Positions 41,598-49,614 of a stretch of DNA of 64,000 nucleotides are shown here, piece after piece (within the stretch, counting starts at the first letter, position 1; each line of letters starts with the position of its first letter). The notes under the pieces are model-generated. The model searched no databases, was not told the origin of the DNA, and saw only the letters and a list, made by a program, of their open reading frames with translations. Both the position numbers and the translations under genes were made by a program. Source of the stretch: Salinigranum rubrum (GTDB lineage: Archaea > Halobacteriota > Halobacteria > Halobacteriales > Haloferacaceae); the NCBI RefSeq assembly GCF_002906575.1, contig NZ_CP026309.1:3410001-3474000 (forward strand), written 5' to 3'.

Positions 41598-41978
41598 ATG
41601 GCGAAAGAGCAGAAGCAGGTCCGGGAACTCCAAGAGGGTAGCTACGTCATGATGGAGGACTCACCCTGCAAGATCAACGCGTACTCGACCGCCAAGCCGG
41701 GTAAGCACGGAAGCGCCAAGGCGCGCATCGAAGGGAAGGGCGTCTTCGACAACAAGAAGCGCTCGCTCTCTCAGCCCGTCGACGCGAAGGTCTGGGTGCC
41801 GATCATCGAGCGCAAAGGCGGACAGGTCCTCTCCGTCTCGGACGGCGAGATGCAGGTCATGGACCTCGACTCCTACGAGACGTTCACCATGCGCATCCCC
41901 GACGGTATCAGTGCGAGTTCCGACGACGAGATCGAATTCCTCGAGTACGAGGGACAGCGTAAGATCGTCCGGTCCTAG
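41598..41978 (+). CDS. eif5A: Translation initiation factor IF-5A
   Basis: 126 aa from ATG 41,598. The deoxyhypusine/hypusine site is Lys36 in [13 protein letters not shown]; the rest includes the SH3-like first domain and an OB-fold second domain ([20 protein letters not shown]). It relieves ribosome stalling at polyproline and other hard peptide bonds after Lys36 is modified. It is followed 12 nt later by the agmatinase-like gene and further on by deoxyhypusine synthase, forming a locus for its own modification. Confidence 0.97.
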
Positions 41979-41990
41979 CGGTCGAGCCGC

Positions 41991-42842
41991 ATGTTCCCCG
42001 GGACGACCGCCGAGCGCGACGCCGCCGACTACGTCGTCGTGGGCGCGCCGCTCGACGTCTCGACGACGTTCCAGCCGGGAACGCGGTTCGGACCCGACGA
42101 GATTCGGAAGTTCGCCGAGCCGTACGACGACTACGACCACCGAACGGACCAGTTCTTCACCGAACTCGGCGTCGCCGACGCTGGCGACGTCCGCGCGTGG
42201 GACGACGCCGAGGCGTACCTCACCTTTCTCTCGGGGACCCTCCGCGACGTCGTCTGGGACGACGCGGTCCCGCTTCTCCTCGGCGGGGAGCACACGGTGA
42301 GCTACGCCGGCGTCGAGGCGACCGACCCGAAGACGTTCGTCTGTCTCGACGCTCACCTCGACCTTCGAACCGAGTACGACGGCAACGAGTGGAGCCACGC
42401 CTGCGTCACCCGGCGCGTTCTCGACGTCGTCGACGAGGCCGTCGTCGTCGGGGCGCGGACGGGGTCCCCCGAAGAGTGGGAGCGAGCGGAGGAGGAGGAC
42501 GTGACCGTCGTGCCGCCCGAGTCGGTGCGCGAGTGGCTGGCGGGGTTCGACAGCGACGGGCCGGTGTACCTCAGCGTCGACATCGACGGCGCGGACCCGA
42601 GCGTCGCTCCCGGGACGGGGACGATGGAGCCGTTCGGCCTCTCGTCTACCCAGATGCGCGACGCCGTCCGGGCGGTGGCCCCCGCCTGTGTCGGCTTCGA
42701 CGTGGTCGAGGTGAACGACCGCGACGACGGCCAGGCCGCCGCGCTCGGGGGAAAGCTCCTCCGCGAGTTCGTCTACGCCCACGCCGCGAGCAGCGGGTCG
42801 GCCCCCGACGACGGCGGGCGCGCGGACCGACCGGGTGACTGA
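41991..42842 (+). CDS. speB: Agmatinase-like ureohydrolase
   Basis: 283 aa. The dinuclear manganese site is intact: GGEHT (His101), DAHLD (Asp120, His122, Asp124) and DIDGADPS (Asp197, Asp199). Compared with typical SpeB the specificity loop reads RTEYDGNEWSHACVTRR, so the substrate may differ from free agmatine. In Haloferax volcanii a gene of this type next to the IF5A gene has been proposed to act in deoxyhypusine formation with agmatine as donor; I apply that by position and similarity. The stop is followed by 104 nt and a small membrane gene. Confidence 0.93.
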   Translation: MFPGTTAERDAADYVVVGAPLDVSTTFQPGTRFGPDEIRKFAEPYDDYDHRTDQFFTELGVADAGDVRAWDDAEAYLTFLSGTLRDVVWDDAVPLLLGGEHTVSYAGVEATDPKTFVCLDAHLDLRTEYDGNEWSHACVTRRVLDVVDEAVVVGARTGSPEEWERAEEEDVTVVPPESVREWLAGFDSDGPVYLSVDIDGADPSVAPGTGTMEPFGLSSTQMRDAVRAVAPACVGFDVVEVNDRDDGQAAALGGKLLREFVYAHAASSGSAPDDGGRADRPGD

Positions 42843-42946
42843 TGGCGAATCGTTGGCACGCGCGCTACGCGTCGCCGGGTGAGCATTGCTCGTGAGGTGA
42901 CTCCCGCGCCGAACGGCCACGAACCGCAAGCAGAAGGTCTACCCCA

Positions 42947-43093
42947 ATGGCGACGCTGTCTTCACCCGTGCGAACATCCACGCTAGTCCTCGCGCTCGGC
43001 GTACTGCTCTTCGCCCTCCCGCTCCCCGGGACGTTCATCGGCGGCGGACTCGTCCTGCTCGCCGGCGGACTCGCCCGCTGGCTCGGGGTCTGA
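42947..43093 (+). CDS. 48-aa single-pass or hairpin membrane protein
   Basis: ATG 42,947 (MATLSSPVRTSTLVLALGVL) to TGA 43,093. Strongly hydrophobic: TLVLALGVLLFALPLPGTFI (12-31) and GGGLVLLAGGLARWLGV with Gly-rich turn. Codons favour G/C at third positions like true genes and the product contains almost no charged residues, unusual for random frames here. It lies between the agmatinase-like and nif3-like genes. Function unknown. Confidence 0.68.
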   Translation: MATLSSPVRTSTLVLALGVLLFALPLPGTFIGGGLVLLAGGLARWLGV

Positions 43094-43152
43094 GGGGTTC
43101 GAAACCAGCCGAGACGTACAGATACAAACGCCCTGAACCCGAGGGTCGACGC

Positions 43153-43917
43153 ATGGAACTCGCCGAACTGGTCGACCGCTACGACGAGAAGCTCAGGACC
43201 GACGCGTACGCCGACATCGACGCGAGTGCGAACGGCCTGCAGGTCGGATCCGGAGGGAGAGAAGTCGAGCACGTCGCCGTCGCCGTCGACGCCGCGACGG
43301 CGACCATCGACGAGGCGACGGAGGCGGGCGCGGACGTCCTCGTCACCCACCACGGACTCTCGTGGGGCGGCATCGAACGGGTGACCGGCCGGGCGTACGA
43401 CCGCATCGCCCGTCTGGTCGACGCCGAGACGGCGCTGTACGTCTCACACCTCCCGCTCGACGGTCACCAACAGCTAGGAAACGCCGCCGGTGTCGCGGAG
43501 TTCCTCGGTCTCACGGAGCGAGCGCCGTTCGCGACGCTGGGCGGCGAGCCCATCGGCCAGCGGGGGCAACTGTCGACGCCGCGGTCGCCGCGGTCGCTCA
43601 AGGAGGAACTCGACGAACTCCCACAGGGGGGCGAGGAGACCCGGCTGTTGTCGTTCGGCCCCGAGGAAGTCGAGGAGGTCGGAATCGTGACCGGGAGCGG
43701 CGCCGACTTCCTCGACGACGCCGTCGCGGCAGGCGTCGACACGCTCGTCACGGGCGAGGGAAAACAGCAGGTGTACCACCAGGCGCGGGAGTCGGGAGTG
43801 AACGTCCTCCTCGCGGGCCACTACGCGACGGAGACGTTCGGGGTGCGCGCGCTCGCGTCGCTCGCCGCGGACTGGGGGCTGGAGACGACGTACGTCGAGC
43901 ACCCGACCGGGCTGTGA
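43153..43917 (+). CDS. Nif3-like dinuclear metal centre protein
   Basis: 254 aa. NIF3/YbgI family toroid with metal ligands in VLVTHHGLSWGG (about 60-71), LYVSHLPLDGH, and TGEGKQQVYHQARESGVNVL followed by LAGHYATETFGV, supplying the His and Glu ligands. The family is universal and has been linked to GTP cyclohydrolase-like or metal-trafficking activity, but no reaction is firmly established. Its position within the IF5A cluster may be fortuitous. Confidence 0.92.
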   Translation: MELAELVDRYDEKLRTDAYADIDASANGLQVGSGGREVEHVAVAVDAATATIDEATEAGADVLVTHHGLSWGGIERVTGRAYDRIARLVDAETALYVSHLPLDGHQQLGNAAGVAEFLGLTERAPFATLGGEPIGQRGQLSTPRSPRSLKEELDELPQGGEETRLLSFGPEEVEEVGIVTGSGADFLDDAVAAGVDTLVTGEGKQQVYHQARESGVNVLLAGHYATETFGVRALASLAADWGLETTYVEHPTGL

Positions 43918-43987
43918 GCGCCGAAAGCGTCGTGGTCGACTGAACAGGACCGGGACGTTCAAACGCCGGCCCGCCACATCCCCACTC

Positions 43988-45067
43988 ATGAGCGACCACG
44001 ACGCCCCAGAAGCCGACGAGGAGGGCACAGGAGAACACGAGGGCGACGGAGTCGGACAGAGAGAGACGTTCCAGGAGAACCCCATCGGCCACACGCGGGT
44101 CCGCGCGGGGATGACGGTCGGCGAACTCGTCGACGAGTACGGGAAGGCGGGCATCGGCGCCGCGGGCGTCGAGCGGGCGGTCGACATCTACGCCGAGATG
44201 CTCGACGACGACGTGACGAACTTCTTCGGCCTCGCGGGCGCGATGGTGCCGACCGGGATGCGCCAGGTCGTGGTCGACCTCATCCGCGACGGCCACGTCG
44301 ACGCGCTGGTGACGACTGGTGCGAACCTCACCCACGACGCCATCGAAGCCGTGGGCGGCAAGCACCACCACGGGAGCGTCGGGCCGCACGACCACCGCGT
44401 GGAGGAGCGGACTGACGCGCCGAGCGAGCGCGACCACGACGAGCGCCTCCGCGACGAGGGCGTCGACCGCATCTACAACGTCTACCTCCCCCAGGAACAC
44501 TTCACGCTGTTCGAGAAACACCTCCGTGCGAACGTCTTTCCGAACGTCGAGCGGACCGTGACGATTCAGGAGTTCACCGAGGAACTGGGTCGGGCGAACC
44601 TTCAACAGAACCGCGAGCGCGACGTCGACGAGGACGCCGGCATCGCTGCGGCGGCGTACGACTGTGACGTTCCCATCTACGTGCCCGCCGTCCAGGACTC
44701 CGTGCTGGGTATCCAGGCGTGGATCTACGGCCAGACCTCCGACTTCGCGCTCGACGCCCTCGGCGACATGTCGCACCTCTCAGACCTGGCGTTCGCTGCC
44801 GACTCCGCGGGCGCGATGGTCGTCGGCGGGGGCGTTCCCAAGAACTACGTCCTCCAGACGATGTTGACCGTCCCCGACGCGTACGACTACGCGGTGCAGT
44901 TGACGATGGATTCGAGCGACACCGGGGGGCTGTCGGGCGCGACGCTCGACGAGGCGCGGTCGTGGGGGAAGTTGGAGAAAGACGCGCGGAACGTCACCGT
45001 CGTCGCCGACGCGACCATCACCCTCCCGCTGGTGGTGGCCGCCGCACGCGAGCGAGCGGGCGAGTGA
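43988..45067 (+). CDS. dys: Deoxyhypusine synthase
   Basis: 359 aa. Transfers an aminobutyl (or agmatine-derived) group to Lys36 of aIF5A. Active-site Lys328 is in RSWGKLEKDARN; the NAD-site elements DALVTTGANLTHDAIEA (about 105-121), VPAVQDSVLG and FAADSAGAMVVGGGVPKNYV are all present. An acidic N-terminal extension of about 25 residues and a His-rich insert (GGKHHHGSVGPHDHR, about 123-137) are features not in typical bacterial or eukaryotic enzymes. Three genes downstream of aIF5A. Confidence 0.96.
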   Translation: MSDHDAPEADEEGTGEHEGDGVGQRETFQENPIGHTRVRAGMTVGELVDEYGKAGIGAAGVERAVDIYAEMLDDDVTNFFGLAGAMVPTGMRQVVVDLIRDGHVDALVTTGANLTHDAIEAVGGKHHHGSVGPHDHRVEERTDAPSERDHDERLRDEGVDRIYNVYLPQEHFTLFEKHLRANVFPNVERTVTIQEFTEELGRANLQQNRERDVDEDAGIAAAAYDCDVPIYVPAVQDSVLGIQAWIYGQTSDFALDALGDMSHLSDLAFAADSAGAMVVGGGVPKNYVLQTMLTVPDAYDYAVQLTMDSSDTGGLSGATLDEARSWGKLEKDARNVTVVADATITLPLVVAAARERAGE

Positions 45068-48254: not shown

Positions 48255-48461
48255 AAGGGACGCGGGCGGACGGAGCAGAAAGTGGTTTGTTTCGGGCGGG
48301 TCGAGAGTCGACCGGCCGATGACGAACGTCCGCTCCGAACCGGGGTGGCACCCGGTCGTGACGAGCCCTATGAGTGCCGAGGCCACCCCGTCACACTCGC
48401 GAGAACGTGAAAACCGGTCGAGGACCGCGGTCGACACCTGCTGAAAGACTCACTGCCGACG
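48255..48461. other. Gene-free 207-nt gap
   Basis: No frame here has haloarchaeal codon bias over more than about 40 codons. A short candidate (48,320-48,444, plus) has too many Ser/Arg/Pro residues and lacks acidity. Nothing else seen. Confidence 0.5.
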
Positions 48462-49190
48462 CTACGACGGCGTCGTGTCGTCGACAGCGGTCTCCAGAAG
48501 GTCCAGAAACCCGCTCTCGTACCGCTCGCCGACGTGGTTCACGTTCCAGAGTCCAGCGTCCCGAATCTCACGACTCCGGCTGTACCGACCGAGCCACCCG
48601 TCCCCTCGTGAGTCGATCGACCGCTTCTCGAAGTTGCTGAGAAGGGCGATAGCGTTCCGTTCGAGGTACGCCCGGTCGCTGTCGGCACTCGGTTCGTCGT
48701 CGAGGTTCACCCAGAGGAACGGCTGCTCCCGGACGTAGGTACTCACACGCCGTTCGAGGATGTACTCCTCGTCGCGGACCACGGACCGCTCGCGCCCGAT
48801 GCTCGACCAGCGCTCGTCCCAGTCCGGATAGTCGTCGGTCAGGTCGTGTTTCTCGATAATCGCCTCGCCGACGCGCTTGCGATACACGGAACCGCGGTGG
48901 TTGCCCCCGTGAGGGTGGTCGGAACTTCCGCTGCCCGTACCGTAGTGTTGTTTCAGTCTATCCCAGAGCGACGTGCTGCTCCCTTCGGACACGCCGTGTG
49001 TCCCGACGCGGGTGACACGCAACTGGCCCGTCGAGTCGCGTGTTTCGCCCGGTTCGAGGAAGAAGTAGACGCCGCGGTCGGGCCAGTCCATGTACCCGGT
49101 GCTGTTCTTGAGTTTCCGTGTACCGCCGACTCGATGCGCGAGGTCGTCGAGCAAGTCGTAGAAGCGGTCGAGGTCGTTTCGGCGGGCCAT
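48462..49190 (-). CDS. Possible GIY-YIG-like nuclease-fold protein
   Basis: 242 aa from ATG 49,190 (MARRNDLDRFYDLLDDLAHR). Residues about 37-75 show a pattern resembling the GIY-YIG core: RGVYFFLEPGETR (G-V-Y like GIY), RVTRVGTHGVS (for the second strand, Y-I-G like), LWDRLKQHYG with an Arg on the helix, and HRGSVYRKRVGEAI. A catalytic Glu/Asn cannot be fixed. Charged, acidic C terminus (LLETAVDDTTPS). I recall related hypothetical proteins in scattered bacteria and archaea, consistent with lateral transfer, but the family assignment is a recognition by pattern only. Confidence 0.6.
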   Translation of the reverse strand: MARRNDLDRFYDLLDDLAHRVGGTRKLKNSTGYMDWPDRGVYFFLEPGETRDSTGQLRVTRVGTHGVSEGSSTSLWDRLKQHYGTGSGSSDHPHGGNHRGSVYRKRVGEAIIEKHDLTDDYPDWDERWSSIGRERSVVRDEEYILERRVSTYVREQPFLWVNLDDEPSADSDRAYLERNAIALLSNFEKRSIDSRGDGWLGRYSRSREIRDAGLWNVNHVGERYESGFLDLLETAVDDTTPS

Positions 49191-49402
49191 CTCTACTGGG
49201 GCCGTCTCAGTCGGGCATAAAGAGCTTCACCACTCGGTGTGGGTCACGTCGCGGGGGACGAGGCGCGAGAGCGCAAACAGGTGGTATCGGTACGAGAGGG
49301 AACCAACAGAACGAGGTGCCGTTGACAGCAGAGACCGGACTCTCCCCGTGCGACGCGAAACGGCCACAAAGAGTGAGCGGCGAAACGGGTGGGTCCGACG
49401 GG

Positions 49403-49504
49403 TCAGCGCCGTCGGAGGAGGCGGCGTCCCTTGCGAACGATACGTCGTCGGACGCGGCGCGGAAGCCGTCGCCACGTCCGCATCGCCTTGGAGAGTTTTC
49501 CCAT
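49403..49504 (-). CDS. Candidate Arg-rich micropeptide, 33 aa
   Basis: ATG 49,504, TGA 49,403. Sequence begins MGKLSKAMRTWRRLPRRV and ends RLLRRR; about 14 Arg and 3 Lys with no acidic residue. GGAGGTG lies 7 nt before the ATG, matching the anti-Shine-Dalgarno of haloarchaeal 16S rRNA, whereas most genes in the window are leaderless or lack such a site. A TTAAG promoter element about 70 nt upstream (49,573-49,580, minus) would give a short leader. Alternating Arg/hydrophobic residues suggest an amphipathic helix. Could be a real nucleic-acid or membrane-binding peptide, or coincidence. Confidence 0.45.
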   Translation of the reverse strand: MGKLSKAMRTWRRLPRRVRRRIVRKGRRLLRRR

Positions 49505-49614
49505 CGAGTGGCACCTCCATCCGCGACCCGCATCGACTCTCGCTCGACACGGGCCCCCGCAGCTACCTCGCGGGGTGTCTTAACGCTGCGGCCTGCAAGC
49601 GTCGCTCGCCAGAC

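Follow-up and report, generated by a model that had tools for sequence, protein, structure and literature searches.

The analysed window, a stretch of 64,000 nt from Salinigranum rubrum, contains a 33-codon open reading frame (ORF) encoding the peptide MGKLSKAMRTWRRLPRRVRRRIVRKGRRLLRRR, with 14 Arg, 3 Lys, no Asp or Glu, and a computed pI of 12. The Arg-rich frame devoid of acidic residues had been described in an earlier note that named no strand, and is confirmed here on the minus strand (Table 1). The GGAGGTG box reported 7 nt before the ATG is present as well, and pairs with the 3' end of the organism's own 16S rRNA, where its complement TGCGGCTGGATCACCTCCT is found in two occurrences in the same genome.

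Table 1. Features of the window considered in this work (SD, Shine–Dalgarno sequence; aa, amino acids)
Feature	Position	Strand	Basis
aIF5A gene	41604..41978	+	IF5A-like_N
Agmatinase-like gene (Arginase family)	41991..42842	+	family match
Gap where relatives hold the peptide gene	42843..43152	.	no copy here, read by eye
48-aa ORF inside this gap	42947-43093	+	hydrophobic membrane-like stretch
NIF3/DUF34 gene	43153..43917	+	family match
Deoxyhypusine synthase gene	43988..45067	+	family match
C/D box RNA sR-tMet	48314-48384	+	RF02163, 74.7 bits
242-aa protein gene	48462-49190	-	
Putative panhandle 3' arm, imperfect in this copy	49372..49390	-	suggestive only
Arg-rich ORF, 33 aa, ATG to TGA	49403..49504	-	ORF reading, homologues, coding test
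SD GGAGGTG, 7-nt spacer to ATG	49518-49512	-	complementary 16S end
Putative panhandle 5' arm, imperfect in this copy	49526..49544	-	suggestive only
Promoter-like TTAAGACA	49576..49583	-	motif GTTAAGA or TTATGAAG of many relatives; common to L116

Both the composition of the product and its start signal are rare in the window. Out of 188 ATG starts opening frames of 25–60 aa, just two yield products with at least 40% Arg plus Lys and no acidic residue, both of them in the peptide frame, and six of the eight nucleotides of GGAGGTGA are found within 18 nt upstream of only ten out of 846 ATG starts. Most genes of haloarchaea are described as leaderless. In many loci a TATA-like GTTAAGA or TTATGAAG is observed approximately 64–81 nt 5' of the peptide ATG and, as the coding frame and SD are conserved and accompanied by this motif, the gene is in all likelihood leadered and translated.

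Distribution and conservation of the peptide gene

With the single sequence as query, 37 out of 170 genomes from the same family gave matches at E 0.1; 20 of these carry full-length homologues (E up to 1.9e-5), and the weak or partial matches in the 17 others (E 0.0015–0.098) were judged to be chance and left out. A profile search of the order identified 54 out of 392 genomes at E 0.01, and a profile built from a larger alignment, 51 genomes at E 0.001, of which 49 have strong, full-length matches (G387 and G450, with partial matches at E 7e-4 and 6e-4, were left out). The gene is present in these 49 Halobacteriales genomes from 17 genera and six families, with one copy per genome, except for G433 with two. 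The second copy of G433 is on C2, and its C3 copy (L122) has neither a recognisable SD nor the usual neighbours. In a phylum-wide draw of 294 genomes four matched, all from the same order, and the three other genomes of the genus all lack the gene. Scanning named genomes with a pattern yielded 21 stretches, with five MAGs among the sources; the named carriers are Halogeometricum, Halegenticoccus, Halogranum, Haloprofundus, Halobium, Haladaptatus, Halomarina, Halalkalicoccus, and Haloarcula amylovorans, and Haloferax is not represented among the stretches. Further comparisons used 40 loci, from the 20 genomes of the first search and 20 chosen from 39 further strongly matching genomes.

The members are 30–42 aa long, and in the alignment of 37 sequences (A2) the first 30 columns are gap-free, with M1, K3, A7, W11, P15, and I22 invariant and Arg or Lys at many conserved positions. 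Differences among 39 loci fall on the first, second, and third codon positions in 29, 16, and 54% of cases, and the synonymous share of single-step codon differences is 75%, compared to 27.5% expected; this coding test excluded L120, which is 30 aa long, and any pair with more than 35 differing sites. A match to GGAGGTGA of at least four nucleotides is observed in 38 of the 40 loci, of at least five in 30, and of at least six in 24, while random 18-mers contain such matches of five and six nucleotides in 8% and 1.7% of cases, respectively. Hence the homologue search proposed in the earlier note found both the frame and the SD to be conserved.

Spurious Arg-rich frames are numerous in GC-rich genomes, as seen among the ORFs of the window, and a chance frame of this kind had to be considered; given the conservation, the SD, the synonymous excess, the occurrence in 49 of 392 genomes, and the window ORF counts, we regard this explanation as refuted, with a barely perceptible probability. 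As the frame, the SD, and the genomic place are kept in many genera, the pattern goes beyond chance, and comparative sequence evidence makes the ORF almost certainly a real gene.

The family is new and unnamed: a literature search covering titles and the openings of abstracts found no paper describing it, and in annotation the gene may bear the label "hypothetical protein." No family in Pfam, NCBIfam, PDB sequences, or Rfam fits the peptide, and hits with E of 0.05 or above, such as those to Aldedh, Vpu, PRANC, PRODH, and mL78, were taken as chance. Tiny, Arg/Lys-rich, helical proteins are known among ribosomal components, e.g., eL41 and bTHX. The peptide is of the same small basic kind, but it has no sequence match in Pfam or PDB, the eL41 family included, and its distribution is patchy; its absence from 343 out of 392 genomes points against an essential ribosomal part. 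Zinc micro-proteins with C(P)XCG motifs, shorter than 70 aa, have been described in haloarchaea (PMC10716476); they share the size class and the haloarchaeal hosts with the peptide, which lacks the two motifs, Cys being absent from all 37 sequences.

Genomic neighbourhood

We surveyed ±4 kb around the peptide gene in the 40 loci. In 29 loci a divergent NIF3 gene has its start no more than 250 nt from the peptide gene, and in 33 a convergent agmatinase-like gene has its end no more than 800 nt away; both adjoin the peptide gene in 26 loci, and at least one of them, in 36. The aIF5A gene follows past the agmatinase-like gene and deoxyhypusine synthase past NIF3; within this deoxyhypusine/aIF5A cluster, the peptide gene usually occupies the gap that separates nif3 from the agmatinase-like gene. 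As these neighbours are on the opposite strand, they have no operon in common with the peptide gene. The agmatinase-like gene itself is present in 389 out of 392 genomes of the order, and the peptide is therefore an optional companion.

The same aIF5A modification cluster is HVO_2297-2300 of Haloferax volcanii, where the agmatinase-like gene is essential and the cluster neighbours serve a translation factor, according to the available part of the study of Prunetti and colleagues (PMC5178350); that part does not mention the small gene. Judged from its position, HVO_2298 is probably NIF3.

The data show that the peptide gene truly codes for a protein; it belongs to an unnamed family of haloarchaeal microproteins, and has a conserved SD and a usual site in the aIF5A cluster. 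An operon leader or attenuator, including one that senses arginine, was also considered; the gene orientation, with the agmatinase-like gene convergent in 33 and NIF3 divergent in 29 of the 40 loci, led us to reject this explanation. The attenuator trait, where codons matter and the peptide does not, was not observed either, the peptide being conserved, though its codon use is unusual.

The window contains the whole cluster (41604–45067), and the peptide gene, in a single copy in the genome, is located elsewhere, 4.3 kb beyond deoxyhypusine synthase and approximately 6.3 kb from the usual gap. The closest DNA relatives of this copy, with 77% identity including promoter and leader, are those of G423 (232 columns) and Haloarcula amylovorans (221 columns), and the usual neighbours were not seen near the peptide gene in either of them. 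Relocation or transfer of the window copy is likely. A mobile origin was considered and set aside, as searches of plasmids, phages, and viral contigs yielded no match to the peptide gene.

Several other elements are found nearby. ARAGORN reports no tRNA in the window, and a conserved 72-bp element that might be taken for a neighbouring tRNA is the C/D RNA sR-tMet, which is absent from both the ARAGORN and the ORF lists. It is located within 4 kb of the peptide gene in 9 out of 39 other loci. The distance is 1.1 kb in L116 but 4.6 kb in L065 of Haloarcula amylovorans. The 242-aa protein, encoded just 3' of the peptide gene, has no match in Pfam or NCBIfam; by eye, we take it to recall GIY-YIG nucleases. 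A relative of its gene is found near deoxyhypusine synthase in L087 (70.6% DNA identity over 667 columns).

Codon usage and folding of the mRNA

The GC content at third codon positions is 0.65 in the peptide gene and 0.87 in neighbour genes, and the codons CGA, GCA, CTA, and CCA are enriched. Among the loci counted (L083–L122), the third base is A or T in 89% at codon 12, in 86% at codon 26, and in 3% at codon 29; the third-base preferences at codons 12, 13, 26, and 29 are not fully explained by either the peptide or the panhandle described below.

The fold of the mRNA region between –30 and +30 is more stable than when the ORF is replaced by its synonymous shuffles (z averaging –1.66 over 40 loci, compared to –0.22 in 120 control windows inside neighbour genes), the difference being small, z –0.34, against codons drawn from neighbour-gene usage. 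With the flanks of a foreign genus the score is –0.61, and with own flanks, –1.47 (17 genera, Wilcoxon p 0.015). Moreover, arms approximately 18–40 nt before the ATG and 7–31 nt after the stop codon pair better within genera than between them (p 0.0014); they differ in sequence at similar places, e.g., GAACG/CGTTC in Halogeometricum and CGAGCGG/CCGCTCG in Haladaptatus. An initial score, the duplex energy over 60 nt, gave p 0.095, and two later scores were significant. A control placed far upstream showed no effect (p 0.50), but pairing of the 5' arm with far-downstream sequence did (p 0.015), and hence we consider the panhandle around the ORF only suggestive. The window copy is weak in both respects, with z –0.8 and imperfect arms. 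A common RNA structure of the ORF was not found across genera, and genus-wise folds show few covarying pairs. These comparisons indicate that selection likely acts on the folded peptide mRNA.

The functional product might then be the RNA itself, either a folded regulatory RNA that contains the frame only incidentally, or an mRNA that controls the neighbours through being translated. The folding score, the advantage of own flanks, the complementary arms, and the odd position-specific codons agree with this, but the peptide is conserved under free synonymous change, no structure is shared across genera, no Rfam family fits, the far-downstream control scored too, and the window copy is weak; altogether we consider a functional RNA improbable.

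Predicted fold, RelE-type hairpins, and proposed function

The ColabFold model of the peptide is all-helical, with no beta-sheet, the predicted helices 3–13 and 16–32 being joined at Leu14-Pro15 (mean pLDDT 90.9, pTM 0.43). Foldseek against PDB, along with a VIA second look, yielded no match to this model, which is not surprising for a predicted structure of two helices only.

In a PHROGs scan, six out of 37 members match phrog_1213, a RelE-like toxin; the best E-value, 0.0024, is uncorrected for the search of whole libraries with 37 members, and the tests described below partly depend on this lead. The single match with coordinates listed spans residues 6–28. For comparison of profiles we used 18 out of 25 haloarchaeal ParE/RelE matches, those with stops or at contig ends being dropped. 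Here hhalign aligns the N-terminal hairpin over 26 gapless columns (score 19.0, P 0.0013, probability 18%); none of 200 column shuffles reaches this score (mean 7.0, maximum 13.7), the reversed alignment scores 6.75, and nine unrelated families from the neighbourhood, 6.2 to 14.1. When aligned with the RelE hairpin of E. coli, all 40 peptides share a single register, Trp included, with a genus-mean z of 4.6, compared to 1.4 for the reversed reference. Other references are weaker: 2khe ("toxin-like protein") gives a z of 2.5, and the four haloarchaeal RelE hairpins give 2.1, 1.9, 0.8, and 0.8. The Pfam ParE/RelE model matches none of the 37 members at E 1, and PF05016 gave no match among six candidates in G000.

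The likeness to RelE/ParE (PF05016, phrog_1213) is in the basic N-terminal helical hairpin, and is a resemblance rather than proof of descent. The full RelE/ParE domain comprises about 85–95 aa with an antiparallel beta-sheet, whereas the peptide, of 30–42 aa, has neither the sheet nor the catalytic part, and no antitoxin was recognised among the listed genes next to its own, the recognised neighbours being NIF3 and/or the agmatinase-like gene in 36 out of 40 loci. As everything else of RelE is missing, we do not assign the peptide to this family. In RelE toxins, according to a review (PMC7180214), basic helix residues contact 16S rRNA, and in YoeB the basic residues on helix alpha2 are turned toward the 30S head, some reaching h31 (PMC3814384).

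Based on these data, we suggest that the product would be a basic helical hairpin with helices at about 3–13 and 16–32 and a narrow hydrophobic stripe (F/L4, A7, W11, L14, I22, L/V29), Arg and Lys being elsewhere. Its ligand would be RNA, most plausibly rRNA, bound in the manner of the RelE N-terminal hairpin; the RelE-like register and the aIF5A neighbourhood make the ribosome the likeliest RNA partner. To this reading as a whole, a basic RNA-binding hairpin that plausibly docks to the ribosome, we assign a probability of approximately 0.5, and from the alignments and the model the odds that the product binds RNA or the ribosome at all appear about even. Since the catalytic beta-sheet is missing, the peptide would occupy or stabilise a ribosomal site and leave mRNA uncut. 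Made from a short, leadered, folded mRNA, it might also bind this mRNA and so limit translation, which is speculative. A stand-alone RelE-type rRNA-docking hairpin acting as a non-cleaving A-site modulator or competitor of translation factors, autoregulated through its folded mRNA, is a doubtful extension, both A-site docking and autoregulation being speculative.

Binding to nucleic acid or to membranes had been guessed in the earlier note. The nucleic acid part fares better, with the conserved Arg and Lys, the two-helix model, and the likeness to the RelE hairpin in its favour. Arg-rich helices bind any nucleic acid, and with a net charge of +11 to +17 across 40 members the product could be a small DNA- or nucleoid-binding, protamine-like peptide, where Arg neutralises phosphate with no specificity to the ribosome; the fixed W11, P15, and I22 and the hydrophobic stripe call, however, for a shaped partner, and the neighbourhood is translational, which leaves this function possible, if unlikely. 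The membrane part, conceivable for a basic amphipathic helix, gained no support of its own. The amphipathicity noted earlier does hold, the hydrophobic moment of residues 1–31 averaging 3.4 SD above shuffles in 40 members, and a cationic, amphipathic product could be membrane-active, halocin-like or a type I toxin; but there is no secretion leader, no immunity gene was recognised among the neighbours, and the locus is old and fixed, with no plasmid, phage, or viral-contig match, so we consider membrane activity very improbable.

If the hairpin does dock to the ribosome, the peptide would represent a translation micro-factor of haloarchaea, linked to the aIF5A locus, with a toxin-like fold cut down to its ribosome-binding half. 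A hand-picked frame of 33 codons has led to a testable protein family missed by the HMM libraries searched here. The gene also clearly exemplifies a strong and conserved SD in a group described as mostly leaderless, and a short ORF whose synonymous sites seem bound to RNA structure.
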